Source of the DNA: Solwaraspora sp. WMMD792
GTDB lineage: Bacteria > Actinomycetota > Actinomycetes > Mycobacteriales > Micromonosporaceae
Assembly: GCF_029626105.1 (NCBI RefSeq)
Contig: NZ_JARUBH010000009.1
Span: 5,456,001 to 5,520,000, forward strand
Direction of reading: 5' to 3'
Length of the DNA stretch: 64,000 bases
Within the stretch, counting starts at the first letter, position 1. Each line of letters begins with the position of its first letter. The position numbers and the translations under genes are program-made. Below the pieces are notes generated by a model, which was not told the DNA's origin, searched no databases, and saw nothing but the letters and a program-made list of their open reading frames with translations. Positions 47,967-50,238 of the stretch are shown piece by piece.

Positions 47967-48314
47967 CTATTCGATCGCCGCTTTCAAGACCCAGGAGGTG
48001 GGTCGAGGACGGCCGGGGAGGTCAGTGCGCCCGGTGGACCACAGGAGCACCTGGACCGGATCGCCGGCCGGGGCGTGGGGAAAGAGCCGCGTCAGCACGG
48101 CGCTACAGAGTGATCTCGGCGGATGCCAGTGGATGCCGAGCCCTTCGGCGATGTCGTAGGTGTGCACCAGCGTCTCGTTCACGCCCAGTGCCGCGAAGCC
48201 GCTTGGGTCGGTCGGTCCCCAGTGCCAGGCCCGTACCGACGGGTCGGATGCGGCCAGCATGGTGCTCAACAATCGTCCTGCGCCGGTGACTGTTCGCAGC
48301 AGATCGCGGGGAGA
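47967..48314 (-). pseudogene. Maleylpyruvate isomerase/DinB-like protein, C-terminal part, separated by an insertion
   Basis: Frame contains GVNETLVHTYDIAEGLGIHWHPPRSLCSAVLTRLFPHAP...LLWSTGR, the end of a mycothiol-dependent maleylpyruvate isomerase/DinB-type four-helix protein (HTYDIA holds a metal-ligand histidine). The missing N-terminal part lies at 49701-50007. Joining 50007-49701 to 48226-47967 gives an uninterrupted 188-residue protein, with one 88-base copy of the flanking repeat removed. A new ATG inside the inserted element's left end (48329) could start a 120-residue fragment. Confidence 0.82.
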
Positions 48315-48315
48315 C
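48227..48315. repeat. Direct repeat, copy A (about 88-89 bp)
   Basis: Identical over 89 bases to 49701-49789, in the same orientation; the two copies sit exactly at the two ends of the 1.39-kb element. The last base is shared with the element's terminal C, so the true duplicated length is 88 or 89. It codes for the SPRDLLRTVTGAGRLLSTMLAASDPSVR part of the broken gene. Confidence 0.92.
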
Positions 48316-49700
48316 CCGACTTGGCTCATTTAGTGCGTGCTAGGAAAGGCGTCGAGTGCACTTGGAGGCCGACGCGCAAAGGTCGGCGGCGGCGATGATC
48401 GGTCACCGCCGGAACACCGCTGGCCCTGCGGTCGAGACCGGCGCCGCGAGCACCACCCAGAATGGGAGACCGTCCTGTCCCGCCGACCACCAAGATCAAG
48501 TTTTACGACTGGCTGACCTCGCTGTTGCCTCCCCGTTGTACCGTCGCACAAATGCCGCGTCATACCCCGAGGCGCCTACGCGACCAGGTAGGCAAGCAGA
48601 GACAGGAAAGACAGCACACCAAAATCAACCTCTACGTGGAGCGCGGGGGTACCGCTGTCTTTGGTAACGCCTCTACGATCAGCACCGACACGATTAACTC
48701 GCCCGGCGAGCGCGCGACATTTGCCGATGACGTGATGCCGGCAACGCTGACCACACTGCCGATCCTCGTCGTCATCCTCTTGTTGGCCTTGACCGATCAG
48801 ACGGTGCTGCTCCGATCCATCGTGCAAGAAGGCAACCCGCTGGGCCTGGTGGCCCTATTCATTCCACTATTCTCGCCGGTCATCGTGGCTTCTCTCGTCT
48901 ATTTCGCGAAGGTTCGCGGATGGCTTCGCCTCAGCGCGGGCTGGACCAACGTGCTGGCGTTGGTGCCCGCCGGCGTCCTCGGGCTGTTCGTGCCGCTGAA
49001 CTATCTCGGCCTGCAACTGGTCGTGTTCGGGGTCAGCCTTACCTGGCTGCGCGTACGGCATCGCCGGTCGCGCTGGCGGATCGTCGTCCTGGCGTTGGTG
49101 ATTACCGGATCTTTGGCGGGGTTGGGCGCCGTGGCGGAGTGGAAATGGCCTTGGACCGACCACCTCCCCAGAGTGGCTGTCGGCCGCATCGTCGATGGTT
49201 TAACCAGGATGAATGTGCATGATCGGCCGCAAAGCCGATCTGTTCTCGTCATCAGCGTGAATGACGCGTACGCCCTCGTCGCGTCACAGGGCTATCCGCC
49301 GACTGTGGAGACCATTTCGCTCGAGACCCTGCAAGAGGGTCGTGTGTGTCAGCTCAAGCCTCGCTGGAACCAGGTCAGCCTCATCAGACACCTGACGGGC
49401 GGCGCCGACAAACTGGCCAATTCCGTCGAGGTCTGTATGAGCCAGTAGCCACTCGAAGTGCACTTGGTGCGGGTAGAGGACGGCAACCAACGCGCTGTCG
49501 TCGGCCAATTTGCGGGAGTCACGCGACGGTCGCCAGTATATGCAATGTGACCTACGGGGACCGCTGGCCGGTCCCGTAGGCGTCGACCCCACGTGGTCGT
49601 ACAACTTTGTTAAGGACCTCTTAGTGCACGCCTCCCGACACAACACCCCAGTTCACAGCCCTACAGAGCCTCGAATCAGCCGACCGTGAGCCAAGTCGGG
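48315..49700. mobile_element. 1.39-kb element with 14-bp perfect terminal inverted repeats, no transposase
   Basis: The ends are CCCGACTTGGCTCA at 48315-48328 and its exact reverse complement at 49687-49700. Outside the ends lie perfect 88-base direct repeats, and the element splits a protein gene that closes in frame when it and one repeat copy are removed. Inside there is one convincing gene, a membrane protein on the + strand, and no transposase or integrase, so if mobile it would depend on an enzyme supplied elsewhere. The 88-base duplication is far longer than ordinary transposon target duplications. Confidence 0.7.
48462..49448 (+). CDS. Membrane protein carried by the TIR-bounded element
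   Basis: 328 residues from ATG 48462, or 298 from the in-frame ATG at 48552; neither has a strong ribosome site. The N-terminal part contains KINLYVERGGTAVFGNASTISTDTIN, a short strand-rich motif, then four to five membrane helices (LPILVVILLLALTD, LVALFIPLFSPVIVASLVYFA, WTNVLALVPAGVLGLFVPLNYLGLQLVVFGVSL, IVVLALVITGSLAGLGAVA) and a soluble C-terminal domain of about 95 residues (VLVISVNDAYALVASQGYPPTVETISLETL). No known family is recognised. It is the only cargo of the element. GC content is visibly below that of the flanks. Confidence 0.65.
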   Translation: MGDRPVPPTTKIKFYDWLTSLLPPRCTVAQMPRHTPRRLRDQVGKQRQERQHTKINLYVERGGTAVFGNASTISTDTINSPGERATFADDVMPATLTTLPILVVILLLALTDQTVLLRSIVQEGNPLGLVALFIPLFSPVIVASLVYFAKVRGWLRLSAGWTNVLALVPAGVLGLFVPLNYLGLQLVVFGVSLTWLRVRHRRSRWRIVVLALVITGSLAGLGAVAEWKWPWTDHLPRVAVGRIVDGLTRMNVHDRPQSRSVLVISVNDAYALVASQGYPPTVETISLETLQEGRVCQLKPRWNQVSLIRHLTGGADKLANSVEVCMSQ

Positions 49701-49789
49701 AGGCCCGTACCGACGGGTCGGATGCGGCCAGCATGGTGCTCAACAATCGTCCTGCGCCGGTGACTGTTCGCAGCAGATCGCGGGGAGAC
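49701..49789. repeat. Direct repeat, copy B (about 88-89 bp)
   Basis: Exact copy of 48227-48315 in the same orientation, immediately beside the right terminal inverted repeat of the element. Confidence 0.92.
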
Positions 49790-50007
49790 GCGTCGTCGCG
49801 TACCACCAGGTCGAACGGGAGGTACGCGGAGTCGGGCCGGGCGGCGAGTTGCCCGGCGAACGCGAGAAGGTCATGCGCGACATGGGCAGCTGTTTCCCAA
49901 CAGCTCCAGTCGAGCGCGCCGGCCGGGCGTCCCCAGTCCGCCGACTCGTGCGGTGTCAGCGCCCGGACCATCTCGGCCACGGCTTGGTCGACATCACGGC
50001 TGTCCAT
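49701..50007 (-). pseudogene. Maleylpyruvate isomerase/DinB-like protein, N-terminal part, separated by an insertion
   Basis: From the ATG at 50007: MDSRDVDQAVAEMVRALTPHESADWGRPAGALDWSCWETAAHVAHDLLAFAGQLAA, a DinB-type bundle with the HVAHD metal histidines. At 49701 the frame enters the inserted element and ends after a short unrelated tail. The C-terminal part is at 47967-48226. The start has no good ribosome site; the frame is open to 50082. The intact protein would probably be a mycothiol-dependent isomerase or related small-molecule enzyme. Confidence 0.8.
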
Positions 50008-50174
50008 CCGGCGCACAACCAGGAGCCTGCCAGATCCTGCGCCGCCCGGCCGTACCCCCAAACACCCCGCGCACCGGGGCATACGGCTCTATCGGCACCT
50101 GACTTTGGGCTGGTGACTCTGGGTGATCGGTGTGTTGATCGGCACATGCGGACGCCGAGCCGCTGCTGCCGTTG

Positions 50175-50238
50175 CGTCGAGTGGAGGGCTCAGGCACGTT
50201 ATTCGCGCGAATAACGTGCCTGAGCCCTCCACTCGACG
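50175..50238. repeat. 64-bp perfect palindrome
   Basis: Two 32-base arms (50175-50206 and 50207-50238) are exact reverse complements with no spacer; the centre reads ATTCGCGCGAAT. It lies in non-coding DNA 170 bases upstream of the broken isomerase gene. It would fold into a very stable hairpin when single-stranded or transcribed. Between 50239 and 50515 I see no supported gene. Confidence 0.9.

Follow-up and report, generated by a model that had tools for sequence, protein, structure and literature searches.

Within the window (the whole stretch of 64,000 nucleotides that was analysed, from Solwaraspora sp. WMMD792), a gene of the maleylpyruvate isomerase N-terminal domain type is interrupted by a cassette that carries a single gene, ends in terminal inverted repeats (TIRs) and lies between two copies of a long direct repeat (Table 1). 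Both pairs of repeats are as the original prediction had described them, and the same applies to the content of the element, i.e., one membrane protein, whose long open reading frame matches no family in Pfam, NCBIfam, or PADLOC, and no recombinase. The direct repeat is 88 bp in length, or 89 bp with the ambiguous C at 48315/49789 included, and a perfect repeat of this size abutting perfect inverted ends is not a matter of chance. The whole element gives one match in its own genome at E <= 0.001; an exact match to the 14-base end at G000:C9:737450 has no partner end within 8 kb.

Table 1. Features of the cassette and of the interrupted gene (window coordinates)
Feature	Position	Strand	Remarks
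Interrupted host gene, maleylpyruvate isomerase N-terminal domain type	47967..50029	-	Reading frame; Pfam MDMPI_N in both parts
Target duplication, copy 1	48227..48314	.	Identical to 49701-49788; single in G003 and G005
Transposase-less IS1634-type cassette	48315..49700	+	1386 bp; perfect 14-bp TIRs and 88-bp repeats
Left TIR, CCCGACTTGGCTCA	48315..48328	+	First 26 bases of the element identical to one L069 end
Rest of the IS-derived left end	48329..48360	+	Likeness to L069
Passenger membrane-protein gene	48552..49448	+	~298 aa; likely start is the second Met
IS-derived subterminal right end	49621..49686	+	Together with the TIR, 68/80 bases equal the other L069 end
Right TIR	49687..49700	-	Perfect 14-bp inverted repeat of the left TIR
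Target duplication, copy 2	49701..49788	.	Identical to 48227-48314

Removal of the element together with one copy of the repeat yields a single open frame of 215 codons, which includes the 188 residues that excision had been said to restore. Pfam MDMPI_N is matched by both halves of the interrupted gene, the C-terminal half scoring just over the curated cut-off (24.5 bits; cut-off 24.2) and the N-terminal half below it (17.5 bits). Natural empty sites, which the original prediction had proposed to look for, were found when 2.7 kb of the locus was searched against six genomes of the same genus: in two of them (G003 and G005) the gene is uninterrupted, the 88 bp occur once, and there is no element. 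The alignment crosses the site in 586 gapless columns in G003 (543 identical) and in 431 columns in G005 (410 identical, with gaps of 4 and 1), which corresponds to a divergence from the joined flanks of the window of 7% and 5% of columns, respectively. Because the 88 bp are single in both empty sites, the repeat in the window is a real target duplication, and because its two copies are identical while G003 and G005 differ by 7% and 5%, the insertion appears to be fairly recent. Just past the interrupted gene, at 50175-50238, lies a perfect palindrome of 64 bp; the matches listed include similar stretches at seven other places in the same genome and also in G002, G003, G005, and G006, and the palindrome is a member of a dispersed palindromic repeat family.

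The longest open reading frame of the passenger gene starts at 48462 and ends at 49448 (328 aa); since most close relatives align from approximately residue 30, the ATG at 48552 is probably the start. Hydropathy reveals approximately four membrane-like hydrophobic regions, from residue 89 of the long frame onward. A scan of genome contigs with the passenger protein gave no relative, and the relatives came from a separate genome search, in which protein identities were 85, 59, and approximately 50%. With distant matches included, the protein occurs in 13 of the 354 genomes of the host's family (the window's own genome and G026 being counted) and in none of the six same-genus genomes searched. 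The copy in G026, from another genus of the family, is 85% identical at the protein level and 86% identical in DNA over element positions 1-1182; it retains the left insertion sequence (IS) end, and neither a recognised right end nor a flanking repeat was found there. Changes between the window and G026 genes number 36, 15, and 52 at codon positions 1, 2, and 3, and dN/dS is 0.25 for residues 31-328 as a whole, 0.165 for residues 103-328, and 0.63 for residues 31-102. Thus, the passenger is under purifying selection, and the dN/dS pattern indicates that the gene has been retained, with the strictest conservation in its membrane part; the weaker constraint on residues 31-102 was counted against the explanation preferred below. 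The relatives of approximately 50% identity (L189-L192, in the related genomes G261, G340, G339, and G244, respectively) are 86-94% identical to one another and share a core of approximately 1 kb, with no long direct repeats around it and no ends of the window's type. Their mostly different surroundings suggest that the passenger gene family also spreads by other means.

The ends of the cassette are derived from an IS. In a search of 354 genomes of the host's family for the end pattern, with one mismatch allowed, ends of the window's type were matched in 15. Among them is a full-length relative with a transposase, such as the original prediction had sought: a complete element of 1707 bp in Micromonospora sp. 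MP36 (L069 in G298), which has the same 14-bp ends and a 182-bp repeat. Its transposase belongs to the IS1634 family (352.7 bits on NF033559, cut-off 100) and falls inside the long-duplication clade described below. As the termini of the window element match those of L069 (26/26 bases on the left and 68/80 on the right), the former is an IS1634-type element in which the passenger replaces the transposase; at the left end, exact identity stops at 48340, and the likeness past there is weaker. Micromonospora gifhornensis (G227) has a comparable element, which contains a nested IS and has a repeat of 40 bp, and small elements with nearly the same ends occur within the window's genus in G001 (380 bp, 38-bp repeat) and in G002 (1298 bp with a nested IS, 21-bp repeat). 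A solo end in G001, which reads CCCGACTTGGCTCA and is 86% identical over the right 80 bp of the window element, indicates that this type of element has been in the genus. Thirteen loci (the G026 copy included) that have an end without a partner end where expected show no flanking repeat and were taken as solo, broken, or unclassified.

With regard to classification, the window element does not encode an IS1634-type DDE transposase and is therefore not an autonomous member of the family. Both of its ends are homologous to those of an autonomous clade member and are abutted by a long perfect target duplication (88 bp), as in a non-autonomous derivative of the IS1634 long-duplication clade; a host transposase with matching ends, which would be a supporting feature only, was not found. 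A passenger between IS ends without a transposase is characteristic of a mobile insertion cassette (MIC), which the element very likely is. Two other elements, L064 and L075, were rejected as cargo cassettes of this kind, since a nested IS of approximately 920 bp lies inside each (L064, 2332-4958; L075, 3319-4616); in L064, it adjoins the TTTAG of the left end. When window positions 49596-49620 are read in reverse complement (AGGTCCTTAACAAAG beside CTAAG), they look by eye like the L065 sequence that follows TTTAG (AGGTCCTAACAAG), and this stretch is possibly a relic of a nested IS adjoining the passenger.

A duplication of 88 bp, which the original prediction had regarded as abnormal, is not so in this group of elements. 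In the genome from which the window comes, there are five IS1634 copies, and their repeats measure 222, 245, 202, 116, and 1004 bp (the first two are 221 and 244 bp if the ends are set one base otherwise), and four copies that are identical over 1649 bp account for the repeats of 116, 202, 245, and 1004 bp. In the host's family, 70 IS1634-family loci were considered, namely 69 of the 100 matches listed (at most four candidates were scored per genome) and the fifth own-genome copy; ten loci whose ends were not placed (L141, L144, L147, L155, L156, and L171-L175) and one that runs to a contig end (L116) were left out of the counts. The tree of 43 distinct transposases contains a clade of 17 with a support of 100/100, and every element of this set with a repeat of more than 9 bp falls within it. 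Of its 23 copies with both flanks, 17 have repeats of at least 15 bp, three have repeats of 5 bp, and three have none (for one of the latter, L145, the ends are uncertain), whereas outside the clade no repeat of more than 9 bp was found in 36 copies (Fisher p 4e-10). Long duplication is a trait of the transposase clade that matches the ends of the window element.

Two copies from G321, 16 order-level copies, and 42 named copies from other actinobacteria were added to this set, the order-level and named ones having been found with the clade's profile rather than placed on the tree. Four of the 20 order-level loci were left out as their ends were not placed (L231, L231b, L238, and L240); 79 of the 80 named loci were processed (L370 was left out), of which five had been counted before and 42 offered ends and flanks that could be used. 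In all, 51 of the 83 copies have long repeats, 12 have repeats of 5-8 bp, and 20 have none, within fetched flanks of approximately 4 kb, beyond which longer repeats escape detection. Among five G321 copies with no difference over 1770 bp, the repeats measure 5, 15, 23, 459, and 615 bp, which means that duplications of ordinary and of very great length come from a single transposase acting on a single pair of ends. In the group to which the window element belongs, repeats of 15-1004 bp are common. Ordinary short duplications in relatives had been offered as a means of refuting the original prediction; since 5-bp, very long, and missing duplications are all seen, sometimes from identical copies, this cannot be applied as written.

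It should be noted that two of the 20 repeat-less copies (L333 and L334 in Gordonia sp. ABSL11-1, NZ_JASXSI010000015.1) are the two ends of one structure: they lie approximately 20 kb apart, and their outer flanks share a 352-bp repeat. This is a composite transposon of approximately 22 kb, of the IS1634 long-duplication type, that moved as a unit. At L232 (G547), two neighbouring IS copies are accompanied by three occurrences of a 91-bp repeat, which looks like a tandem amplification of the IS together with the repeat; the latter was counted once.

The ends of the long repeats, read inward from each end, carry a target signature. The first set comprises 21 insertions, among them the window element and three other elements without an IS1634 transposase; here, T was found at +1 in 20/42 and A at +5 in 18/42 ends. 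The corresponding counts were 10/18 and 8/18 in the second set and 31/50 (p 5e-11) and 20/50 (p 0.001) in the third, where these were the sole two of 120 position-base tests below 0.01. The two later sets together give 41/68 and 28/68, and all sets 61/110 and 46/110. A third candidate, C at -1, was dropped as part of the signature (25/42 in the first set, but 3/18 and 16/50 later). In ten exact 5-bp duplications, the first base is T (6/10) or C (4/10) and the last is A (9/10), so that each end of a long repeat, with T at +1 and A at +5, has the look of a complete 5-bp target; two of the ten (L131 and L138) have the same 5 bp as those with which the element end begins. At +2 and +4, the 5-bp duplications have C (10/10) and G (8/10), respectively, neither of which is clearly enriched at long-repeat ends across the three sets. 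In the window, T at +1 is present at one end of the repeat and A at the other, and there is no A at +5 at either. The signature is found in repeat-less copies as well: 19 of the 20 (without L145) provide 36 readable junctions, with T at +1 in 18/36 (p 6e-6) and A at +5 in 13/36 (p 0.02), and therefore these copies look like genuine insertions. When one of them (L129) was checked for a deletion, only one flank matched another genome well.

On these grounds, it is very likely that the window element is a MIC in which ends of the long-duplication IS1634 clade enclose a membrane-protein gene and which was moved in trans by an IS1634-type transposase, with the 88-bp duplication as the result. Against this count the lack of a cognate transposase in the assembly (see below), the single intact copy of the cassette found, the G026 copy without a recognised right end, and a further small element with such ends (L074 in G004), which has no repeat. 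Movement in trans itself is probable: an IS1634-type transposase supplied in this way would have put the cassette into the maleylpyruvate isomerase-like gene, and the same enzyme would have produced the 88-bp duplication. In the window's own assembly, no transposase has ends that match those of the cassette (36 candidates scored; five clade copies found), and the five resident clade copies, whose ends are CCCGAGTCTTATCA / CCTGACTCTTATCA, have 9/14 bases in common with the cassette ends. The source might thus have been a cognate element that has since disappeared or is located beyond the assembled sequence; alternatively, the resident copies might cross-recognise the cassette. Action in trans, which belonged to one of the mechanisms that the original prediction had envisaged, is the most likely course; the element itself is of the known IS1549/IS1634 kind.

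As for the way in which such a duplication could arise, the two-ended 5-bp-target pattern and the range of 5 to 615 bp from identical copies suggest that the two ends of one clade element may be joined at two separately chosen targets of the 5-bp type. This reading is tentative, and its chances might be put not far below even. The targets could sit on sister duplexes or on one duplex; if they coincided, a 5-bp repeat would result, if they lay apart in one order, a long repeat of up to approximately 1 kb, and if they lay apart in the opposite order, no repeat (a deletion). The observations agree with this only in part, as the +2 and +4 bases are not clearly enriched and the repeat ends of the window element fit partly. 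It is also possible, if rather doubtful, that there is a single concerted insertion with a very wide stagger, in which the ends are joined to opposite strands of one duplex at points separated by 88 bp, leaving gaps for the host to fill. This would be the simplest extension of ordinary DDE transposition, and every long repeat counted is indeed free of mismatches and adjoins the ends to within one or two bases. However, repeat length ranges from 5 to 615 bp among identical copies, a half-site would not be expected to show A at +5 at both ends, 30 repeat lengths show no helical phasing at 5, 10, 10.5, or 11 bp, and some copies have T at +1 at their junctions and yet lack a repeat. Those repeat-less copies, as well as a complete 5-bp target at each repeat end, are what would be predicted if two nearby 5-bp insertions on sister chromosomes were followed by unequal recombination between the copies, with a deletion as the reciprocal product; nevertheless, this is unlikely, since 51 of 83 copies would each have required two insertions within approximately 1 kb, which is improbable unless transposition strongly favours nearby sites.

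Two simpler origins of the repeat, both raised in the original prediction, retain next to no probability. Integration of a circular molecule by homologous recombination through 88 bp common to it and the target would fit the geometry, i.e., direct repeats flanking an insert, but relatives with the same or like ends have repeats of unrelated sequence and many lengths beside their inverted ends, and the G026 relative has no match outside the element. Equally hard to credit is an 88-bp tandem repeat that was already present in the host gene or was created by an assembly error: no point in its favour was found, the empty sites in G003 and G005 have a single copy, and the same arrangement recurs in many other assemblies.

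By itself, the transposase-less cassette is a modest variant, and the comparison that it prompted matters more. The long-duplication trait is now tied to one transposase clade, and the two-ended target signature can tell wide-stagger from two-target models. If the two-target reading is true, the clade would be a natural source of duplications and deletions on a local scale, with the window cassette showing that it can carry unrelated genes. The range of 5 to 615 bp from identical copies and the T at +1 and A at +5 at long-repeat ends are new here.

Cassettes of the MIC231/IS231 type in the Bacillus cereus group likewise consist of IS ends and a passenger without a transposase and are mobilised in trans, as the window element may have been. 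The two differ in the ends, which are of the IS1634 type in the window, whereas IS231 is described as an IS4-family element with duplications of 10-12 bp (PMC2266710). The same source gives 5-6 bp as the rule for IS1634-family duplications and reports long variable direct repeats (8-514 bp) for IS1549 and IS1634, published in 1998-99, for which no mechanistic model had been proposed as of 2008 (PMC2266710); none is evident in later literature, as far as listings of it indicate. A Geobacillus member of the family is described with a 6-bp duplication (PMC8024623). Long variable repeats are thus known already, and 88 bp is ordinary here. Compared by description, IS1549 of Mycobacterium smegmatis and IS1634 of Mycoplasma mycoides share these repeats with the window element and have the transposase type of its autonomous partner L069; unlike them, the window element has a passenger gene and no transposase. 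The small elements of G001 and G002 (TIR CCCGACTTGGGTCA) also have long repeats and no IS1634 transposase but lack the passenger membrane gene. No passenger cassette on IS1634-type ends was found in the available text of the literature that treats the IS1634 family together with passengers. In Tn6097, which is described as having two copies of ISPfe2 (IS1634 family), ends of this family likewise move other genes (PMC9330008); however, Tn6097 is a composite with complete insertion sequences, whereas the window element forms one unit and has no transposase, and it is the combination of a passenger cassette with long-duplication IS1634-type ends that is new.
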